Origin: Luteibacter yeojuensis
GTDB lineage: Bacteria > Pseudomonadota > Gammaproteobacteria > Xanthomonadales > Rhodanobacteraceae
Assembly: GCF_011742875.1 (NCBI RefSeq)
Contig: NZ_JAAQTL010000001.1
Location: forward strand, 558,001-622,000
DNA: 64,000 nucleotides
Direction of reading: 5' to 3'
Shown: piece by piece, positions 17,511 through 29,575 of the stretch
How positions within the stretch are numbered: the stretch's first letter is position 1
Layout of the letters: every line of letters begins with the position of its first letter
The notes under the pieces: generated by a model
The model's database searches: none
Told to the model about the DNA's origin: nothing
Seen by the model: the letters and a program-made list of their open reading frames with translations, nothing else
Translations under genes and position numbers: made by a program

Positions 17511-17586
<76 letters not shown>

Positions 17587-21091: not shown

Positions 21092-22126
21092 CTATTTGGT
21101 CGGCGTGACCTTGTCGCCGCGGCGCCGGCGAACGTAGTGCTCGGTCATGGTAACGGTGGTGTGGCCCAGCTGCGCCTGCGCCTGGCGGATGTCGCCGGAG
21201 GACTCGGCCTTGTCCGTGCCCGCCTTCGCGCGCAGGTCGCGCATCTGGAAGCCCTTGGCGATAGGCCCGGCATCCTTCCGAGCATTGCGGAAGTGGTCAT
21301 ACAGCTGGTTGTAGGTCAGTGGCTGTCCGTCCAAGCCCACGATCAGGCGTGTGGCATGAACCGGGTACGTGGCCTTCCGCGCGCGGATGCGAGTGAGTAG
21401 GGCTGCAAGCTGGCCGACAACCTCGATCCGGTTTTTCGCGCTCGTCTTCCCCTGCTTCACTTGGATGAAGCCATCCCGCACCATCGTTTCGTCCATCCGA
21501 AGAACGTCACCAACGCGCTGGCCCGTGAGGTATGCCAGGTCGAGCGCGTCCTTTAGGGGCTGCGACGCCTTGGCAAGAACCGCGTCCAGCACCTCGTCCT
21601 CGATATAGATATCCCGCCCGGTTTCTTTGTTGCCCTTGACGCCCGAGCACGGGTTGGCGAGGGCCGTGAAGCCCATCTCGCGCGCCCAGTTCCAGATATG
21701 AGAGAGCAGAGCCTTTTCGCGGTTGGCGCGTACCTTGGCGGTCTTGCTGCGCCACACGAGAAACGACTTGACGTGCTGAGGGGTGATCTTCTCTAGCGGG
21801 CCAGGCGGATCATTGAAATACTCCTTGAGCATCGCAAGTTCTTTGACGTTGTCCTTTTGAGTACGCGGCGACTTCGTCGGCACCACCTCCGCGAGGTATC
21901 GATCGGCAACATAGGAGAACGTGATCACCGAGGCGGTCACACGGTCGGCTGCCGCGCGATCGCGTTCCATCTCGCCCCACTTCTTGGCGGCGAGAGCGTA
22001 GTCAGTGCCAAGCGGCTTCTCCTTGCGCGGCGAGCCACCCAAATCGTAGAAATAGTAGGTCTTCGCCCCACGCTTGCGCAGCCTCAGGCGCGGAATGGCT
22101 CCGGGTCGGCCAGACTTACGCCCCAT
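21092..22126 (-). CDS. int: Tyrosine-recombinase phage integrase
   Basis: The protein has 344 residues. It has an N-terminal arm-binding region, a core-binding SAM-like domain (about 70-160) and a catalytic domain. The catalytic domain has R204 in TGQRVGDVL, a MRDLRAKAGTD box where the usual HxLR histidine is replaced, LGHTTVTMTEHY with H322 and nucleophile Y331. It lies about 115 bp from attL and is transcribed towards it, the classic arrangement for integration into the adjacent tRNA-Leu gene. Confidence 0.93.
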   Translation of the reverse strand: MGRKSGRPGAIPRLRLRKRGAKTYYFYDLGGSPRKEKPLGTDYALAAKKWGEMERDRAAADRVTASVITFSYVADRYLAEVVPTKSPRTQKDNVKELAMLKEYFNDPPGPLEKITPQHVKSFLVWRSKTAKVRANREKALLSHIWNWAREMGFTALANPCSGVKGNKETGRDIYIEDEVLDAVLAKASQPLKDALDLAYLTGQRVGDVLRMDETMVRDGFIQVKQGKTSAKNRIEVVGQLAALLTRIRARKATYPVHATRLIVGLDGQPLTYNQLYDHFRNARKDAGPIAKGFQMRDLRAKAGTDKAESSGDIRQAQAQLGHTTVTMTEHYVRRRRGDKVTPTK

Positions 22127-22405: not shown

Positions 22406-24205
22406 TCAGGCTGCACGCTTTCGGGGACTCGTTGCCTCCACCGCCTGCACCAGCCATCCAGGAACTCCACGCACTCCGGGCATGGGGTCAATACGGGCAG
22501 GGCTTCCAGTGCCGCCACCGCCCGGCACGCTGCCGATATCAGCGCTTGTCTCTCGTTGCGGTTCGGGTGTTGCAAGCTCATGGGCAAGGATCTCTGGGAA
22601 CTTGTCGGTCTCGTCGACGGTAATGGACGTGGGCGAAGGCAACTTCCACGCCAGCGGCAGGGCTTCCTCGACGGTGCGCGGGCACTGATCGATCGTGCGG
22701 GCCTGCCACCAGCGGAGCGCCTTGGCGCGCGCCATGCCGGCGTGCTCGATGCAGATCCACTCGCTGAAGCGCCGCATGCCGCACTGGTAGGTGACCCTGA
22801 GCGACGGCGTCTTCCCCGGCTTCTCATGCCGGGCGTAGGCCACGGAGTGGACCGTGTGCGTCGTAATGGCCCGCTCGCGCTCGGTGGAGAGGACGGGGGC
22901 ATCTACCGGGCGGTCGGAGTGGGCGGGGTCGGCCGAACCGAAGGTATGGCCGCATTCGCACTGACGCGCGCCTAGCGGGAGTAGGGCCTGACACTTCGGG
23001 CACTCCTTGGCCGTTCCACGCTCGACGTGCGCGGCCTTCTTCGGGCGCGCGGCGCGGACACGGATGGCGTCTACGGGGCCATGTTCCAGCATGTTGCCAG
23101 CGTAGTCCAAGACAAGGCAGTCCAGCTTGCCTCCCGCGACGATGGCGGCGAAACGCCCTTCCCTGAACTCAAGGTCGTACCCATTTGCGTAGACGACACG
23201 GAATCCACGGCCCACTTGCTGGTAGTACATGCCCGGCGACTTCGTCGGTCGCAGCATCACGACCACGTCGATCATCGGATTGTCGTAGCCCTCGGAGGCC
23301 ACGTTGACGTTCACTAGCCAGCGGTACTTGCCCGAGCGATGCCCGTCGAAGGCATCCTTACGCCCGGCGCTGCCCTGGTGAACCACCGCGTGAGTCTCGC
23401 CGCGGGCCTTAAGGGCTGCGCATACAGCCAGTGCGTGCTTGACGTTGACGCAGAAGATGATGCCGCTCTTGCGGTCAGTGGTGCGGGCCAGCACATCCGT
23501 GATCGTGGCCTCGACCAGTGGGATCATGGCGTCCGCTAGCTCGCCCTCGACATACTCTCCACCGCGAATGTGGACGCTCGACAGATCGGGCGCTTCGCCA
23601 GCCTTACTCACGAGCCGCGAGAGGTATCCGTCCTCGATCAAGTCGCCGACGCGAGCCTCGTAAGCGATATCGTTTGCGACGTAGTTCGGGCCACAGATGG
23701 GGATGGCCTGTCCCTGCAATCGATAGGGGGTCGCCGTGAGGATGATGACCCGAAGGTTCGGGTTGAACTTTTTGCACTCGCGAATGAAGGTCAGGTACAT
23801 GCCGTCACCGCTCAGGGGGATGCCATGGCCCTCGTCCACAATGAGCAAGTCGAATCGGCCCAGTTCGTGCGCGCGCTTCGCCACGCTCTGGATCTGCATG
23901 TAAAGAATTTTGTCGAAGCGGTCGCGCCGACGCAGGCCCGCCGCGTAGATGCCCATCGGTGCCTCCGGCCACATGGCGCGCAGCTTCTCGCTGTTCTGCA
24001 CGACAAGCTCTTGGCGCGGCGCCAGAATGCCCACGCGGCCACCCCATTGCTGCACGGCCTCCTGCGCGATGGCGGCCATGAGGGGCGACTTGCCGGCGCC
24101 CGTGGGGAGGACCAGGGCGGGGTTGCCCTCGCGGTGGCGGAGGAAGTCCCAGCAGGCTTCTAGGGCTTGGGATTGGTAGGGACGCAATACTAGCCCGGCA
24201 GCCAT
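22406..24205 (-). CDS. Phage DEAD/DEAH-like superfamily 2 helicase
   Basis: The protein has 599 residues. Motifs: Walker A PTGAGKS (about 36-42), DEGHG in place of DEAD/DEAH, TATPYR (motif III), VNVASEGYDNP and the motif VI region YYQQVGRGFR. A four-cysteine zinc ribbon (CPKC...CECG) sits at about 405-425. Similar ResIII-type helicases occur in replication/recombination modules of siphoviruses. The start overlaps the preceding gene by 16 bp. Confidence 0.88.
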   Translation of the reverse strand: MAAGLVLRPYQSQALEACWDFLRHREGNPALVLPTGAGKSPLMAAIAQEAVQQWGGRVGILAPRQELVVQNSEKLRAMWPEAPMGIYAAGLRRRDRFDKILYMQIQSVAKRAHELGRFDLLIVDEGHGIPLSGDGMYLTFIRECKKFNPNLRVIILTATPYRLQGQAIPICGPNYVANDIAYEARVGDLIEDGYLSRLVSKAGEAPDLSSVHIRGGEYVEGELADAMIPLVEATITDVLARTTDRKSGIIFCVNVKHALAVCAALKARGETHAVVHQGSAGRKDAFDGHRSGKYRWLVNVNVASEGYDNPMIDVVVMLRPTKSPGMYYQQVGRGFRVVYANGYDLEFREGRFAAIVAGGKLDCLVLDYAGNMLEHGPVDAIRVRAARPKKAAHVERGTAKECPKCQALLPLGARQCECGHTFGSADPAHSDRPVDAPVLSTERERAITTHTVHSVAYARHEKPGKTPSLRVTYQCGMRRFSEWICIEHAGMARAKALRWWQARTIDQCPRTVEEALPLAWKLPSPTSITVDETDKFPEILAHELATPEPQRETSADIGSVPGGGGTGSPARIDPMPGVRGVPGWLVQAVEATSPRKRAA

Positions 24206-24825
24206 GCTTTGCCTCCTCGTATGCGGGATACAACCGACTGGTGAATACCGAAGCGCTCGGCAATTTCGCGCTGCGTTCCCGTTGACGAGCGAATAATTTC
24301 CACCTTCTCGGCATCAAGGCGCGTGTCGGTGCGATTCCTCTGTTGTGCTGACTTGGTTGCCCACCGACAGTTTCCCGGCTCATAGTTCCCGTTTACATCG
24401 ATCCGATCGATCGTCATGCCAGCGGGACGCTCACCCATATCGGCGAGGAACCCCACGAACTCTGTCCACCTTTCACACACGGTGATCCCGCGCCCGCCGT
24501 ACTGCGGATAGCTTGCGTGGGATCTCTGTGTGCATCGTTGCATCATGGACCTCCATGATTGCCACGTCGGAGTCTGGTAATCGGCACGGTTGTGTCCGTG
24601 CACTGTGTTGCGCCTAGTCGCTCTCTTCGATGCTTGTTCACTCTGAAGGCATCCGCATGATGCAGTTGTGCCGTGACGCAAAGCCTGCCCGATAACGGTA
24701 GCTTCTTTGCCGCAGTCGCAAATGCAGAGCCATGCTGCTTTCCCCCTTCGACTGCCGGACCTGGTTACAACGACCAGTCTGCCTATGCGAACACCGGTCA
24801 TGTCTTTCACTGGCGATCCACTCAC
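24190..24825 (-). CDS. YGGRGI-family putative phage homing endonuclease (HNH-like), copy 1
   Basis: The protein has 211 residues. The GTG start forms a GTGA overlap with the upstream gene and has GGAGG eight bases before it. The N-terminal half holds a CICDCG...CGC cysteine cluster. The core reads SWRSMMQRC, YGGRGITVCERW, MTIDRIDVNGNYEPGNCRWAT. The C-terminus is a resolvase-like helix-turn-helix (REIAERFGIHQSVVSRIRGG). The core is shared with the protein at 29024-29575. Such proteins are usually listed as hypothetical or HNH; nuclease activity is an inference. Confidence 0.65.
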   Translation of the reverse strand: MSGSPVKDMTGVRIGRLVVVTRSGSRRGKAAWLCICDCGKEATVIGQALRHGTTASCGCLQSEQASKRATRRNTVHGHNRADYQTPTWQSWRSMMQRCTQRSHASYPQYGGRGITVCERWTEFVGFLADMGERPAGMTIDRIDVNGNYEPGNCRWATKSAQQRNRTDTRLDAEKVEIIRSSTGTQREIAERFGIHQSVVSRIRGGKAWLPG

Positions 24826-25130
24826 GCCGCCTTCCTCCCAGGAGCCACCCGGTGCCGTTGATACGCGCCACCCTCGATCCGACGCAGGCGCACACACTCA
24901 CGCAGGTCATCCTCGATCTGCCTCCATAGTGCGAATCGCCCCAGCTCCTGCGTGTACACGCCGACCATCTCGTCGGGAATGGCGCCCGCCGGAAACTCGA
25001 CGGTCACGAGGCCGTCGGGGTCAAGGCACACCGCGCGCGGAGTCTTGAACTCCATGATGGCCTCGGCAGCACGATCGGCGCAGTAGGAGAGGGTGTTCTT
25101 GCCGATGCGGCCGACGACTTGTTCGGTCAT
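24822..25130 (-). CDS. Hypothetical phage protein
   Basis: The protein has 102 residues and is not recognised. It is acidic in the middle with a basic C-terminus and has no membrane segment. It fits the operon by its GTGA overlap downstream and a 1-bp gap upstream. Confidence 0.65.
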   Translation of the reverse strand: MTEQVVGRIGKNTLSYCADRAAEAIMEFKTPRAVCLDPDGLVTVEFPAGAIPDEMVGVYTQELGRFALWRQIEDDLRECVRLRRIEGGAYQRHRVAPGRKAA

Positions 25131-25131
25131 G

Positions 25132-25389
25132 TCAGGCGACTCGGCGAATTTCGCTAGTGAGGACGCGCGGCTCCTCGCGACCCGGAAGCTCGACGGCCGC
25201 CGTGGTGCGGCCGATATCGTCGTGCAGCTTCAGTGCGTCGATTTCGCACTTCACTGCATTGATGTACGTGCCGGCGACTATGGACGTTGCCTTAGCGCGT
25301 TCAACCACCTCGGGCGTCGCTTCGGGGTCGCCAAGCGCCTCGAGCATCGCCACGAGGTGGTTTCGCACATCGCTCATCTTGTTCTTCAT
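25132..25389 (-). CDS. Hypothetical helical phage protein
   Basis: The protein has 85 residues and is predicted largely helical (NHLVAMLEALGD, VVERAKATSIVAGTYINAVK). Overlaps the HNH stop by 4 bp. The pattern resembles small phage proteins of unknown role next to recombination genes. Confidence 0.65.
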   Translation of the reverse strand: MKNKMSDVRNHLVAMLEALGDPEATPEVVERAKATSIVAGTYINAVKCEIDALKLHDDIGRTTAAVELPGREEPRVLTSEIRRVA

Positions 25390-26063
25390 GCCTTGCTCCG
25401 GCGGTTGATCTTGCGGTTGAGGGCGCCCTTAAGCTGAATAAGCTGTGCGACGTCCTTCGGGTAGTTGTTGTGGTAGCTGTTGCGGCGCATAAGCTCCTGG
25501 CGGCTCACAAGCTCAAGCGCGTCGAGCGTGATGTGCTCCGCCTCGGTGGTTCGACGCCCTGGCAGAAAGGCCACAGCGTGGCCGGGAGGCACCGGGCCAT
25601 TGGCGGCCTCCCAAACGATTCGGTGGACGCCAATCCAGCGGCGCGCAGGCACGGGGTGATCGTCGGTCACCTTGCGCTCTAGGTAGCCATCCTTGCTGAT
25701 CCGCTCAGATCCCACGGGCACGTAGTTGTGCTGCGCGGCTCCGGCCATCGTGCCCTTCTTGAACTGGGTACGACGGCAGTTCTCGTGCGTGCCAGTTGAG
25801 CCCTTGAGGCCCTTGTTCCACGAGTCGTGCCCGGCCTTGAACTGTGTGGCCCGCATGGCGGGGTTCTGCTTGCCTCGCTGCACGCGCCCGCTTCGGTCGC
25901 TGGCGTAGAACGCCTCGGATTTCGATAGGCCAAGCTTTGCCGCGCGCTGGTAGACGGGTCCAACCGGCCGGCCGAGCGCTTTTGCAATGGCACTTGTCTG
26001 CTCGTGCGGGTAGCGAGCACGCATCAGGTCGTCCTCGGCGTCGGTCCAGCGGCGGCCGCTCAC
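25386..26063 (-). CDS. HNH homing endonuclease-like protein with N-terminal Myb/SANT-type helix-turn-helix
   Basis: The protein has 225 residues. Residues 3-50 form a SANT-like DNA-binding helix set (RRWTDAEDDLMRARYP). The middle carries the repeated QFKAGHDSWNKG / QFKKGT pattern (NUMOD-like) and the C-terminus the HNH_3 signature RRWIGVHRIVWEAANGPVPPGH. Both ends overlap neighbours by 4 bp, so the gene is embedded in the operon without visible disruption. Confidence 0.8.
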   Translation of the reverse strand: MSGRRWTDAEDDLMRARYPHEQTSAIAKALGRPVGPVYQRAAKLGLSKSEAFYASDRSGRVQRGKQNPAMRATQFKAGHDSWNKGLKGSTGTHENCRRTQFKKGTMAGAAQHNYVPVGSERISKDGYLERKVTDDHPVPARRWIGVHRIVWEAANGPVPPGHAVAFLPGRRTTEAEHITLDALELVSRQELMRRNSYHNNYPKDVAQLIQLKGALNRKINRRSKA

Positions 26064-27130
26064 GCTGCCTCCTCAACCGGCACAAACCGGCCATCAAATT
26101 CGTCACGGATTTCGTTTGCCAAGCTGTCCCGCAGGATGGCCGGTGTCATAGCGGCCAGTTCCTCCGACCCGAACGAGCCCGGACCCCTCGGCCCATTGCG
26201 GAACACCACGCCATCCGCGCTCGTGTACTCGACCCAATTACCCCCCTCGCTGGCGTCCGTCGCCTCTCCCCAGCGCTTGAGCAGAGCCGGGATGTAGCGA
26301 TGCTCCGGGCAGCCCGTGCGCTGCGCGTCAAGCGGAATATCCGCCTTCCACTTCGCGCACGACCAGCGGCCGTCGCCATCGGGTTCGGGCGTGGCGTGGG
26401 CGCAGGTGCGGCAGGAGACGGCGGGTAGGCGGTTCGTATGGCATACCGGCGATGCTGGACAGAACTTGCACTTGTAGAAAGAGGGGTCCGCGCTGATACC
26501 ATGCGGTGGCTCCTTACCGTAGATCACTCGCTCAGCCTTAGCCTCCAGAGACTTCGCGAAGGTCGCGTCGTAGCGCACGCGCTCGCTATACAGATCGTCG
26601 GTGTCCTTGTTCACGGCCAGGTACAGGGCGCGGGTGAGCTGCGACCAGTGCATGTAAATCTGCATCTGCGCGTAGTGCTCGGGCTTGGCCTTCTGTACGC
26701 CATCCTTTTGAAGAGTCACGAAGCTCTTAGCGTTATGAGTCTTGAACTCAGCCACGTGGTAGGTCTTCGGTGCCTCGGGAACTCCGAGGATGGCCGCGTC
26801 CATGCTTCCTCCCGCATGACCTCCCACGGCCTTGAAGTTGAACTGCGCGCCCGTGGCCGGATCGATGTCGTACACCTCGCAGCCGATGGCCCGAAGTTCG
26901 GATACGAAGACCGCTTCCTCTCGCTGGCCTCGGTCGAATAGTCGCTGCATGCGGCCTTCGAACCGCTCGCCGCCAGTCGCCCAGCGGAAGCCGTACCAGA
27001 GTTGCCGTTCGCACTCTCGGCCGATGACGGACCCGCCAAGATAGGCGCGCGGCTGGGACTGCTTTCCGGCCCAGAAGCTATAGATGGCTTCAACCGTTTG
27101 GCTTGTTGGTTTCTCGGGAAGAAGGGCCAT
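26060..27130 (-). CDS. PD-(D/E)XK exonuclease, Cas4/RecB-like, with cysteine cluster
   Basis: The protein has 356 residues. It begins with an RECERQLWYGFRW motif like the conserved Cys of Cas4. The nuclease core is GGSMDAAILG followed by VAEFKTHN (D...ExK), and QMQIYMHW is the QxxxY motif. Cysteines in YKCKFCPASPVC and CRTCAHA may bind an iron-sulfur cluster. With the Sak4-like ATPase and DUF669 protein in the same operon, it is probably the exonuclease of the phage recombination system. First gene after the large RNA-like interval. Confidence 0.8.
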   Translation of the reverse strand: MALLPEKPTSQTVEAIYSFWAGKQSQPRAYLGGSVIGRECERQLWYGFRWATGGERFEGRMQRLFDRGQREEAVFVSELRAIGCEVYDIDPATGAQFNFKAVGGHAGGSMDAAILGVPEAPKTYHVAEFKTHNAKSFVTLQKDGVQKAKPEHYAQMQIYMHWSQLTRALYLAVNKDTDDLYSERVRYDATFAKSLEAKAERVIYGKEPPHGISADPSFYKCKFCPASPVCHTNRLPAVSCRTCAHATPEPDGDGRWSCAKWKADIPLDAQRTGCPEHRYIPALLKRWGEATDASEGGNWVEYTSADGVVFRNGPRGPGSFGSEELAAMTPAILRDSLANEIRDEFDGRFVPVEEAA

Positions 27131-27690
27131 GTTCGCGTTCTCGCTTCAATGGGTGGACCGGGCCGGAGGTGATCCCGGCACTGGCTTCACAGAGCCAAGG
27201 GAGACTTGTCGCACCAATACGTCTCTCTTTCTGCCTATACCCATATCAATCAGTGCATGGGTGCTTAGACGTTCCTGGCTGCGCTCACTACTGCGCATTC
27301 CGGTCCATAACAAGTGAGCCGGCTCCCGCTACGAGTGTTGAGGGGGCAAAACCCGGTCTATGCGTTAACCGGCTCACTTGTGCCCCGTGCTACTCGACGG
27401 GGCGGCGAGGCTGTCTTTTCAGGCTGTCACTCGATCGGTTCCTTTACGCGGAACTTGCATCGAGATTCCCCGCGACCGGTCTTTCCCGGTTGTCACTGGC
27501 TTCTCAGTGAGTAGCGGCAAGGCCAGGACCGTGCCACGTTACTCCGGTGGATACCGCTTCCGACTTCGCTCTCGCATTACCTACGCGGCCTTCCGCGCTT
27601 AGAGTCAGGTTGCAGTGATCGACCGGCGAGATACCCCCACTTCAAGCCAGTGCCGGTGTTATGTGCGCCACCGCCGGCTGGGCTGATTCG
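27131..27690 (-). other. 560-bp gene-free interval inside the leftward early operon
   Basis: No frame here looks like protein; the open plus-strand frame at 27103-27510 has no family resemblance. The whole interval is instead filled with inverted repeats (see the ncRNA entry). It lies between two genes of one operon whose other junctions are 0-40 bp or overlaps. Confidence 0.85.
27175..27656 (-). ncRNA. Candidate large structured RNA closed by a 13-bp end-to-end stem
   Basis: CCGGCACTGGCTT at 27175-27187 is perfectly complementary to AAGCCAGTGCCGG at 27644-27656. Between them lie a second 13-bp stem (27310-27322 with 27369-27381) and at least eight local hairpins. These include 27239-27262 (ACCCAT/ATGGGT), 27280-27297, about 27387-27406 (CCCCGT/ACGGGG), 27430-27465 (two stacked helices), about 27475-27490 with a GAAAGA loop on the minus strand, 27493-27508 and 27583-27596. 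Size, position in a prophage operon and this many-armed layout recall the ROOL/GOLLD class of ornate phage RNAs. I cannot show homology by eye. Minus-strand transcription is inferred from the operon. Confidence 0.6.
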
Positions 27691-28203
27691 TTAGGCCGCC
27701 TTGTTTGCCCACGGCGGCGTGGGGCTGGCCGGCTGGTTGTTGGCGGCGGGAGCGGAAGAGGGCGCCGAGTTCGTGGCGACACCGTCCGAGAGCCTTTTCC
27801 ACGCTTTGATCTCGTTGCTGTCGCGGTCGGTGACGTAGCCGTTCTTCTGCTCGGTCCCGGCGGGGATGTACTCGACGCGAATCACGTGGGGTTTGAAGTG
27901 AAGCTCCTGCGAATCCACGGGATTCGCAACGCCGGTCACCTCGCGGATGCTGGCGAACTGCCGATTGGCGATTTCCTGGGCCGTCGAGTTGGTGCTCTTG
28001 AGGTTCAGGCGCGCCCAGAGCTTGCGGCCCTTGTACTGCCCCTCAGTGATCTCGTACGCCAGTTCCAGATATTCGCCGTCGCCTCGCTTCGTCGGCTTCA
28101 TGTCGCTATCCACGATCACGGCCGGATATTCGCCCGTCGGGATGGCGTTGAAAGCGGTTTGCGATTCGGCGTTCGGGTCGTACTTGCTATTCAGGTTTGC
28201 CAT
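27691..28203 (-). CDS. DUF669 phage ssDNA-binding-like protein
   Basis: The protein has 170 residues. An OB-like core (PAVIVDSDMKPTKRGDGEYL, then GRKLWARLNL and the SI/LAREVTG-type helix) matches DUF669. The Pro/Ala/Asn-rich tail ends PPWANKAA. DUF669 proteins commonly accompany Sak/Erf/RecA-like annealing proteins in phages and are thought to bind single-stranded DNA. Encoded just downstream of the Sak4-like ATPase. Confidence 0.8.
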   Translation of the reverse strand: MANLNSKYDPNAESQTAFNAIPTGEYPAVIVDSDMKPTKRGDGEYLELAYEITEGQYKGRKLWARLNLKSTNSTAQEIANRQFASIREVTGVANPVDSQELHFKPHVIRVEYIPAGTEQKNGYVTDRDSNEIKAWKRLSDGVATNSAPSSAPAANNQPASPTPPWANKAA

Positions 28204-28244
28204 GTTCGTTTCCTTGGTTCGATTGTGGTGCGCGGTGGCTAGGA

Positions 28245-29021
28245 TTACGCCGCCTGCTCGACGGCCATGCCGTTCGGCACGTACATGGCGAACGGGTTGT
28301 CGCCCTTGGCATAGGGAATGTCGCGCTCGATGCCAAAGCGGTTCTTGCTGATATGGCTCGGGGTCGGGTAGCAGGTGATGATCCGCGAGCCATCGGAGTG
28401 GGCGCGCTTCTTGTCCGCGTCACCCGTGGTGAAGGTCTTGAGCTTGATGAACGCGACGAGATCGACGTTGTCGCTGTAGTGCGACACGGACTTCTTGTGC
28501 ATGCGGATCGTGTAGCGGGTGTACGGGTCGGCGTCCGGAAGCTCCAGGGTTTCGCTGTCGGCGTGCGCGATGAACACGACGTTCATGCCCTTGGCTGCGG
28601 ACAGCGATCCCGCCCAGTCGCGCAGCTGACGGTGACGGTCGGACACAGCCGAGTGCCCGGCGCCGTAGCCGCCCATCGCTTGGTTGATGCTCCTGGCCTT
28701 GGGATCGGACGCGACCACCTCGGCCTCGATCATGGTGTTCAGCTGCGTCACCGAGTCGATGACCAGGGTGCGGAACGGGTGGCCCTCGGTTGCCAGCGAC
28801 GTAATGGCGTCGAAGACATCCTGCGAGGACTGAGCCACCGGGAACAGGGCGACGTCATTGCGGCCAGTGAGGCTCGCCGTGCCATCTTCCGTGCGGATGA
28901 TGACCGGAGCCGGGAAGCTGGCCGCGAGCGAGGTCTTTCCCATGCCACCCTCTCCGACGAGGGTCGCGATGATCGGGCGCTGGCCGGTGGGCGCGGTAAG
29001 TGTCGAGAGAGAAATTGCCAT
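28245..29021 (-). CDS. Sak4-like RecA/AAA ATPase (single-strand annealing type)
   Basis: The protein has 258 residues. Walker A GEGGMGKTS at about 22-30, Walker B-like RTLVIDSVTQLN, and MNVVFIAHADSE. This is the phage AAA_24/Sak4 pattern, a minimal RecA-like recombinase that works with an SSB. The ATG at 29021 (GGAGAAC upstream) was preferred over the open extension to 29276, which lies inside the neighbouring gene. Confidence 0.82.
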   Translation of the reverse strand: MAISLSTLTAPTGQRPIIATLVGEGGMGKTSLAASFPAPVIIRTEDGTASLTGRNDVALFPVAQSSQDVFDAITSLATEGHPFRTLVIDSVTQLNTMIEAEVVASDPKARSINQAMGGYGAGHSAVSDRHRQLRDWAGSLSAAKGMNVVFIAHADSETLELPDADPYTRYTIRMHKKSVSHYSDNVDLVAFIKLKTFTTGDADKKRAHSDGSRIITCYPTPSHISKNRFGIERDIPYAKGDNPFAMYVPNGMAVEQAA

Positions 29022-29023
29022 GT

Positions 29024-29575
29024 TCAGTTCTCCGGGTTCTTTGCGTATTCGCCCGTACCACGCGGGCGGCGATTGATGGCTTGTTCGATGTCGTCTGCCC
29101 ATCGGCAGTTTTTGGGTTCGTAGTTGCCGTTCGTGTCTATTCGGTCGATGCTGTGGTCCGTTGTTGGGCGAGGTCCCATATCCGCCATGAACGCCGAGAA
29201 ATCGTCCCACCGATCGCAAACCTCGATGCCTCTGCCACCATATGCGGGGTAGTCCTTGCACTTTGGATTGCTGCAACGCTGACGCATGGACTTCCAGATG
29301 GCGTACTCGGGTAGCTGGTTCGCCAAGCCGTGCTTCGTCATCTGCCGTCCGCGTGCAACACCGGCTTCCTTGGCCCGAGACGCGCGGACTTCATTGTTCA
29401 GGCAGCCGCAGGACGACGACTTGCCGCTGACGACGACCGAGGCTGCGATCTCCTTCATGCTCCCGCACTCACACTCGAACAACCACACGCGCTTTCCGTG
29501 CTTGTCGCTTCCTTCGCTTTTGATCGCGGTAAGGCGTCCGAAGCGTTGTCCTGCGATGTCGAGGCGAGCGACCAT
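29024..29575 (-). CDS. YGGRGI-family putative phage homing endonuclease (HNH-like), copy 2
   Basis: The protein has 183 residues. N-terminal GQRFGRLTAI and the cysteine cluster FECECGS...CGCLN are followed by WKSMRQRCSNPKCKDY, YGGRGIEVCDRW, SIDRIDTNGNYEPKNCRWAD. The order is the same as in copy 1 at 24190-24825, but this copy lacks the C-terminal helix-turn-helix. Overlaps the upstream stop as TAATG. Confidence 0.65.
   Translation of the reverse strand: MVARLDIAGQRFGRLTAIKSEGSDKHGKRVWLFECECGSMKEIAASVVVSGKSSSCGCLNNEVRASRAKEAGVARGRQMTKHGLANQLPEYAIWKSMRQRCSNPKCKDYPAYGGRGIEVCDRWDDFSAFMADMGPRPTTDHSIDRIDTNGNYEPKNCRWADDIEQAINRRPRGTGEYAKNPEN

Follow-up and report, generated by a model that had tools for sequence, protein, structure and literature searches.

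Genomic context of the noncoding region

The region considered here lies in an operon on the minus strand of the window, i.e., the whole 64,000-nt stretch of Luteibacter yeojuensis DNA that was analysed. The prophage origin of the operon is indicated by its integrase, Sak4-like, and Cas4-like genes, and two HNH endonuclease genes share the early operon with the RNA (Table 1). Between the DUF669/SSB-like gene and the Cas4-like exonuclease gene, the coordinates of the flanking open reading frames (ORFs) leave 560 nt without a gene, confirming the interruption of the operon noted in a preliminary description of this DNA. Stop codons occur in all three minus-strand frames of the gap (8, 7, and 10), and the longest stop-free stretch on the RNA strand of the window copy spans 60 codons; a protein frame was therefore rejected, and no conserved frame of the kind that the preliminary description had said would speak against an RNA was found in the interval. 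The minus strand of 26900-28300 contained neither a terminator nor a sigma-70-like promoter when searched for both, and a scan of the gap for an acceptor stem plus T arm gave no tRNA-like fold. The only tRNA in the window is a tRNA-Ala at 17511-17586 (ARAGORN), approximately 9.5 kb from the gap.

Table 1. Genes of the prophage operon and elements of the noncoding region, in window coordinates.
Feature	Coordinates	Strand	Remarks
Integrase gene	21092-22126	(-)	prophage operon
Helicase gene	22406-24205	(-)	prophage operon
HNH endonuclease gene	24190-24897	(-)	prophage operon
HNH protein gene	25386-26063	(-)	prophage operon
Cas4-like (Cas4-domain) exonuclease gene	26060-27130	(-)	downstream neighbour of the gap
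Whole noncoding structured region	27131..27690	(-)	between the DUF669/SSB-like and Cas4-like exonuclease genes
Outer 13-bp stem, arm adjoining the exonuclease gene	27175-27187	.	exact here; not conserved in L161/L162
Helix B, 3' strand	27310..27322	(-)	CCGGCUCACUUGU; partner-swap energies
Helix B, 5' strand	27369..27381	(-)	ACAAGUGAGCCGG; partner-swap energies
H-type pseudoknot	27383..27409	(-)	CUCG 27406-27409 with CGAG 27393-27396; CCCCGU 27397-27402 with ACGGGG 27383-27388
UGACA hairpin, variant b	27409..27429	(-)	UGACA-GCCUG-AAAAGA-CAGCC; one mismatch; one-base overlap with the pseudoknot module
UGACA hairpin, copy a	27475..27495	(-)	UGACA-ACCGG-GAAAGA-CCGGU
Enclosing helix E, 3' strand	27544..27557	(-)	swap test
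Block 2	27560..27609	(-)	CUGACU/AGUCGG stem around a GCGCGG-AAGG-CCGCGU hairpin, plus GCGAGAGC
Enclosing helix E, 5' strand	27612..27626	(-)	swap test
Outer 13-bp stem, arm adjoining the DUF669 gene	27644-27656	.	exact here; not conserved in L161/L162
Block 1	27650..27683	(-)	GCCGG...CACCGGC hairpin element; near-invariant in the three syntenic homologues, similar in L009
DUF669/SSB-like gene	27691-28203	(-)	upstream neighbour of the gap
Sak4-like annealing protein gene	28245-29276	(-)	prophage operon

Inverted repeats and folding

The preliminary description had drawn attention to a 13-base complementarity between the two ends of the gap and to a second, internal 13-bp stem; both are exact, the latter being the pairing that we call helix B. 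When 1000 dinucleotide shuffles of the gap were considered, at least one perfect 13-bp inverted repeat appeared in 2 of them and two such repeats in none, and the gap holds 11 inverted repeats of 9-mers against a shuffled mean of 0.69. The z-scores of the fold energy are -4.3 (operon strand) and -3.3 (opposite strand), and none of 100 shuffles folded as well as the native sequence on either strand. The shuffle counts bear out the proposal that this density of perfect stems is unlikely to be due to chance, and GAAA-containing loops are indeed present on the operon strand, in hairpins with the loops GAAAGA and AAAAGA.

Homologous RNAs between the same two genes

A search with the exonuclease returned 30 loci, 26 of them with a DUF669 gene just upstream, including some near-duplicates (e.g., L163/L164). 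The gap between the two genes measures 560 nt in the window, 487 nt in L162, and 983 nt in L161, and these two syntenic metagenomic phages carry a homologous RNA of 487 nt (L162) and approximately 755 nt (L161). The L161 gap additionally contains a small ORF (L161 is the same contig as L027). For the remaining 24 relatives with the same gene pair, the gap ranges from -4 to 252 nt and contains no homologous RNA. The RNA is present in some phages and absent in others between otherwise neighbouring genes.

Block 2 is conserved in both L161 and L162, with a related element in L009. The enclosing helix E has three different sequences in the three homologues, and every 5' strand binds its own 3' strand best: in the swap test, own partners gave -18.8, -29.7, and -20.5 kcal/mol, whereas foreign partners gave -9.4 to -16.6 kcal/mol. 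The 13-bp stem that had been described as closing the whole RNA is exact in the window and has no counterpart at the matching place in L161 or L162; since it is absent from both syntenic homologues, it may be peculiar to the window copy, and we rejected it as the organising helix. The homologues also differ in their interior, with L162 having no UGACA hairpin at the corresponding place and L161 having 197 nt between the second hairpin and the pseudoknot module, which directly adjoin each other in the window.

Several of the short gaps (L158:3863-4000, L160, L163, L165, L168, L170, L174, and L187) contain a different compact conserved element. Read by eye, it probably forms a nested pairing GAGC-N4 ... 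N4-GC-A-CCGGC around AGCCGG, both strands of the N4 pairing seeming to have changed from locus to locus. The 3' half of the element is similar to block 1 of the window RNA.

The pseudoknot and helix B module

In this module, which is 90-117 nt long, an upstream CUCG or CUCC pairs with CGAG or GGAG in the first hairpin loop to form an H-type pseudoknot; a single C and a long helix come next. It was found at 16 places, some of them without the other modules, and with compensatory changes. Ten copies were aligned, with the near-identical copy L008 excluded: that of the window (where the stretch with relatives covers 27310-27412), that at C1:1755201-1755307, one from G041, a genome of the same family (Rhodanobacteraceae), and seven from six metagenomic phage contigs. 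The covariation score of this alignment was 0.287, compared to 0.112 in shuffled alignments, and none of 500 shuffles reached 0.287, while slid structures scored at most 0.092. Cells changed on both sides numbered 25 against 9.2 in shuffles. Alignment A2 gave 8 pairs changed on both sides against 5.6, a value reached by 4 of 500 shuffles; for one of the five measures, further pair types, A2 gave 11 against a shuffled mean of 11.7, with 413 of 500 shuffles reaching 11. Across the ten copies, the strands of helix B bound their own partners with a mean of -25.9 kcal/mol and foreign partners with a mean of -14.1 kcal/mol, favouring their own by 12 kcal/mol on average. The covariation among homologues for which the preliminary description had called is accordingly found in several helices, namely helix E, the pseudoknot, and helix B. 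In L162, the four-base pseudoknot pairing is broken, and three pairs (ACC/GGU) are still possible as read from the letters.

Additional copies were obtained with a covariance model (R1) from whose structure the pseudoknot pairing was omitted, although the pseudoknot letters themselves were included. It matched 9 places, distributed over 8 of 233 Rhodanobacteraceae genomes; six of these places were new, and in all six the pseudoknot strands are complementary as read from the letters, the pairings being CUCC/GGAG (L207), CUCG/CGAG (L209 and L212), and GCCC/GGGC (L208, L210, and L211). The last three copies are alike, so this new sequence may represent one event. Matches of R1 on the opposite strand of known copies were not counted, being mirror effects of a symmetric helix. 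The pattern GTNGAGNAGNACNNNGCACAAG gave 19 stretches, with the stems present in L006, L007, L008, L009, L024, and L027; the other 13 stretches do not contain them and were dropped, as were L030 and L031.

Parts of the region are conserved as RNA structure, and its modules also occur in other settings. For example, in L002, L003, and L006 the module comes after a gene and the other modules are absent, as read from the letters. A second copy in the same genome (C1:1755201-1755307, equivalent to L005:9202-9308) lies in another phage-like region. A small lipoprotein-like gene follows the module in L006, and a related gene precedes the C1:1755201-1755307 copy. Downstream of helix B in L003, L006, L009, L208, L210, and L211, as judged by eye, a small GC hairpin is situated directly 5' of an AAGGA-type Shine-Dalgarno sequence.

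The UGACA hairpin

The second recurring element is a single hairpin of 21 nt with the general form UGACA-[5 bp]-GAAAGA-[5 bp]. A first pattern matched at least 120 stretches of IMG/VR in the forward direction and none when reversed, and it occurred five times in four of 398 Pseudomonadota genomes, again with no match when reversed. Among the matches listed, this pattern accounts for 126 occurrences in 105 distinct contexts; all 105 have a complementary free stem pair, and 104 a complementary outermost pair. When different stems were sought with a second pattern, 93 of the 121 occurrences listed paired fully, covering 81 distinct contexts and 28 stem types; of the 28 listed occurrences that do not pair, 12 have a 5' side reading GCACG and possibly represent another element. 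Taken together, the matches listed for both patterns amount to 231 hairpins in 212 of 237 IMG/VR loci, with at least 182 distinct contexts and 36 stems. The TGACA flank was present in 230 of 252 hairpins among the matches listed, a figure that is inflated because the loci had been selected by that flank. Five complete or large phage sequences contained nine perfect 5-bp GAAAGA hairpins, all nine with the UGACA flank, whereas a control loop gave none; in these five sequences, the copies of one phage all lie within one leader stretch.

Annotated phages bearing the hairpin have hosts as diverse as enterobacteria, pseudomonads, Vibrio, and Bacteroides. A separate match list of 112 phage records includes many weak matches, some of them inside coding genes (e.g., the Pseudomonas JBD68 group, E=8), which were not counted as hairpins. 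The DIBBI match, with the loop GAAAGT, is an imperfect copy. When considering the flanks, no upstream 9-mer passed the enrichment filter in the search for a boxA-like element, and the top 7-mers occurred in at most 14 of 105 contexts. From -15 to -2 no single base exceeds 40%, position -1 is C in 52%, and position +1 is A in 141 of the 182 contexts among the matches listed. By eye, GGAAAGACCAA also recurs outside the hairpin in the leaders of L193 (Stenotrophomonas phage BUCT708) and L197 (an E. coli prophage), as if a second related motif were present.

According to simple ORF calls, 75 of 120 occurrences among the matches listed fall between genes, the median gap being 389 nt, while ORFs of 90 codons or more contain 32 in antisense and 13 in sense orientation. 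For the 69 intergenic cases listed, the following ORF shares the strand of the hairpin in 52 and is on the opposite strand in 17, as it is in a Vibrio phage; this last group is a poor fit to a purely cis-acting leader. In mEp390, Medea1, and Cruim01, the hairpin is located in a gap downstream of the annotated repressor and on its strand, with other genes between, and in BUCT708 and the E. coli prophage it is located in the gap directly behind an HTH gene facing a Cro-like or HTH gene, on the strand of the former. The noncoding gaps that contain the hairpin in these five measure approximately 310-920 nt, and P7641 shows a similar layout with unnamed genes. Elsewhere, the hairpin precedes the small terminase gene by approximately 800 nt in Cronobacter ESP2949-1/CS01, lies in the gap ahead of several grouped tRNA genes in Pokken, and follows the integrase in Alexa. 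The position within leaders varies, the hairpin being near the start or near the end.

In BUCT708, one hairpin copy overlaps an annotated 37-codon ORF, and an intrinsic terminator with a 7-bp all-GC stem and seven T (L193:2800-2816) lies between the second and third copies. The leader contains three terminator-like sites on both strands, compared to a shuffled mean of 1.4. By eye, the flanking CUGUGU/ACACAG strands could enclose this terminator, in a noncoding leader behind the HTH gene.

tRNA-like folds behind the hairpin

Offsets of 1-11 nt were allowed in a scan for tRNA-like folds behind the hairpin. An acceptor stem plus T arm was found 3-7 nt downstream in 22 of the 182 contexts among the matches listed, compared to 1 of 1820 in the control, and ARAGORN placed tRNAs within 20 nt in 11 of these 182 contexts, where 0.05 would be expected. 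Of the 22 folds, ten are called tRNA genes by ARAGORN and 12 are not; several of the latter, read by eye, are without a normal anticodon arm or have a long insert there, while two (L061 and L070) match the Rfam tRNA model. Uncalled folds situated 4-5 nt behind the hairpin occur in L039, L061, L217, L218, L223, L244, L251, L290, and L295. In the window, the operon strand around the gap carries no terminator and the gap has no tRNA-like fold, so that the BUCT708 layout and the tRNA spacing do not apply to it.

Searches against known RNA families

None of 4227 Rfam families reached its curated threshold in the gap, and the rest of the window gave a single tRNA. When the threshold was relaxed to E=10 for 27000-27800, one microRNA, one lncRNA, and one snoRNA family appeared, all far below their thresholds. 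The preliminary description had proposed covariance models for ROOL, GOLLD, OLE, HEARO, and group I/II introns; none of these matched. HEARO is confirmed as a member of the library by its match in L042, and ROOL, GOLLD, OLE, and the group I/II introns are families that we take to be included as well. Rfam searches of 13 further loci with modules or hairpin gave tRNAs only, and those of 20 other hairpin-bearing loci gave tRNAs and the one HEARO; no model matched the modules. The full 560 nt had no BLASTN match among 50,697 phage records, and neither motif was found described in a literature search that covered mostly non-subscription papers and was made by letters for the hairpin alone. A resemblance of GGGAAAGACC to a flavivirus 3'-UTR is likely a coincidence, and a self-cleaving ribozyme reading of the UGACA hairpin and of the L158-type short-gap element was set aside on comparison with known ribozyme cores only.

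Both modules are without a match among the curated RNA families and in the literature searched, and the hairpin signal crosses unrelated phages. Membership in ROOL or GOLLD, suggested earlier on the basis of size and place, did not hold at the curated thresholds. The other option then offered, a new class, is the better one, with the qualification that the conserved unit is the module and not the whole 560 nt.

Proposed function and alternative readings

The 560-nt region is almost certainly a real RNA under selection. Our preferred reading, to which we assign roughly even odds (probability of about 0.5), is that of a multi-domain RNA made of portable modules that acts mainly in cis on the early transcript. 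The modular RNA would act on the early (left-operon), untranslated phage transcript, with the UGACA hairpin serving as a landing or boundary site and the pseudoknot plus helix B as a putative cis-regulatory or insulating unit before the next cistron. Together with a bound factor, the hairpin could let RNA polymerase pass long untranslated stretches; alternatively, it may mark the end of one RNA unit and the start of the next. An elongation signal is favoured by the early-leader position, by the terminator within one leader, and by an outline resembling that of boxB. The short and narrowly defined distance to the tRNA-like folds speaks for a processing signal or unit boundary. Antitermination-like cis action at the level of transcript elongation and cis action through RNA processing or unit boundaries would both be rather doubtful, the former marginally less so. 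Both readings draw on other phages, not on the window. We also propose, at somewhat less than an even chance, that UGACA-[5 bp]-GAAAGA-[5 bp] is a pan-phage signal that marks an unnamed class of modular RNAs and is read by a conserved host factor for elongation or maturation of untranslated phage RNA, with the window RNA being a composite of this signal and the pseudoknot module.

It is rather doubtful that the hairpin is instead an RNA-processing or 3'-end element, capping the upstream RNA once RNase P or another nuclease has cut at a tRNA or tRNA-like fold that begins 3-7 nt further on, in which case the window RNA would be a string of hairpin-separated units. Such a role is suggested by the hairpin-to-acceptor spacing, by the A at +1, and by the second hairpin of the window, which directly abuts the pseudoknot module. 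However, 160 of the 182 contexts among the matches listed have no tRNA-like fold at this place, nor has the window, and a simple 3' cap does not need the conserved 5' flank UGACA.

It appears unlikely that the early transcript releases a large, stable RNA that works in trans and, like the GOLLD/ROOL cages, serves a structural or scavenging purpose. The sizes of the three homologues (487, 560, and approximately 755 nt), the ornate fold, the phage location, and the tRNA-like folds that adjoin the shared hairpin in other phages are all consistent with it, whereas the missing Rfam match and an architecture that is not fixed, with no UGACA hairpin at that place in L162 and a 197-nt spacer in L161, argue against it. 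Moreover, the 90-117-nt pseudoknot module stands alone behind genes, e.g., in L003 and L006, and its occurrence without the other modules is a poor fit to one large machine.

In a translational switch, a downstream Shine-Dalgarno sequence (GGCAAGGAA) would pair with the 3' strand of helix B, which reads CUUCCUUGU in several copies, the pseudoknot deciding which pairing forms. L003 and L162 keep UUCCUUG despite a C-C mismatch in helix B, and the short copies lie just upstream of a start codon. Nevertheless, the pairing of the Shine-Dalgarno sequence with UUCCUUG of helix B was judged by eye only, and the window copy reads CUCACUUGU and ends approximately 180 nt from the exonuclease start, so that the switch does not fit the window; overall, it is improbable.

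A decoy against host defences that target tRNA or RNA is very improbable: 12 of the 22 tRNA-like folds are not called by ARAGORN, several of them seeming by eye to be without an ordinary anticodon arm, and the RNA is highly variable between phages, but the window copy has no tRNA-like fold, and L061 and L070 match the Rfam tRNA model. That a GC-rich spacer or the remnants of a decayed gene merely fold by chance has a negligible probability: although GC-rich DNA generally folds well, the shuffles, the covariation, and the independent copies refute this for the inner modules.

If it is a general phage signal, the UGACA hairpin would offer a short, exact, and testable handle on untranslated phage RNA, on what binds the hairpin, and on whether a polymerase or a nuclease reads it. 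The adjacent tRNA-like folds, some of them without a normal anticodon arm, bear on the purpose of odd phage tRNA genes, and the natural variants of the pseudoknot module are numerous enough to make it an RNA family suited to studies of structure and binding. Such stretches are mostly left empty in phage annotation, where these RNAs could be named.

Comparison with known systems

The boxB element of phage lambda has a 5-bp stem and a 5-nt loop of the type GNR(N)A that starts with G and ends with A, with boxA upstream. The UGACA hairpin resembles boxB and the nut site in its 5-bp stem, its purine loop of the form G...A, and its early-leader position in several phages. In contrast, it has a six-base loop and a fixed UGACA flank, no boxA was found upstream of it, and it also occurs before tRNAs; in the window, the stems have 5 bp and the loops (GAAAGA and AAAAGA) six bases instead of five. 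Intrinsic attenuators are known from the phage immunity regions of P4, N15, and P1 c4, and the BUCT708 leader, an RNA with a terminator after the repressor region, is similar to these. The window differs in having no minus-strand terminator around the gap and no Rfam match (c4 included if it is in Rfam). HDV-like theta ribozymes reportedly occur next to phage tRNAs (PMC10879173). The UGACA hairpin is likewise found beside tRNAs in phages and differs in being a single hairpin of 21 nt; ribozyme families of Rfam, scanned in 34 sources, gave none at threshold, theta ribozymes being covered only if they are in Rfam.

The put RNA of HK022 comprises approximately 70 nt with two stem-loops and lies downstream of PL and PR (PMC9378689). 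This RNA-only antiterminator is, like the window RNA, a structured phage RNA of an early operon, the comparison being one of architecture and not of sequence. GOLLD and ROOL are described as phage or prophage RNAs that are often near tRNA islands (PMC12286853). The window RNA is likewise large, many-armed, and encoded by a prophage, with a pseudoknot, and part of the hairpin-bearing loci have tRNA neighbours, the sole tRNA of the window being approximately 9.5 kb off. Unlike GOLLD and ROOL, the window RNA is modular and variable, with no fixed architecture, and its parts occur alone.
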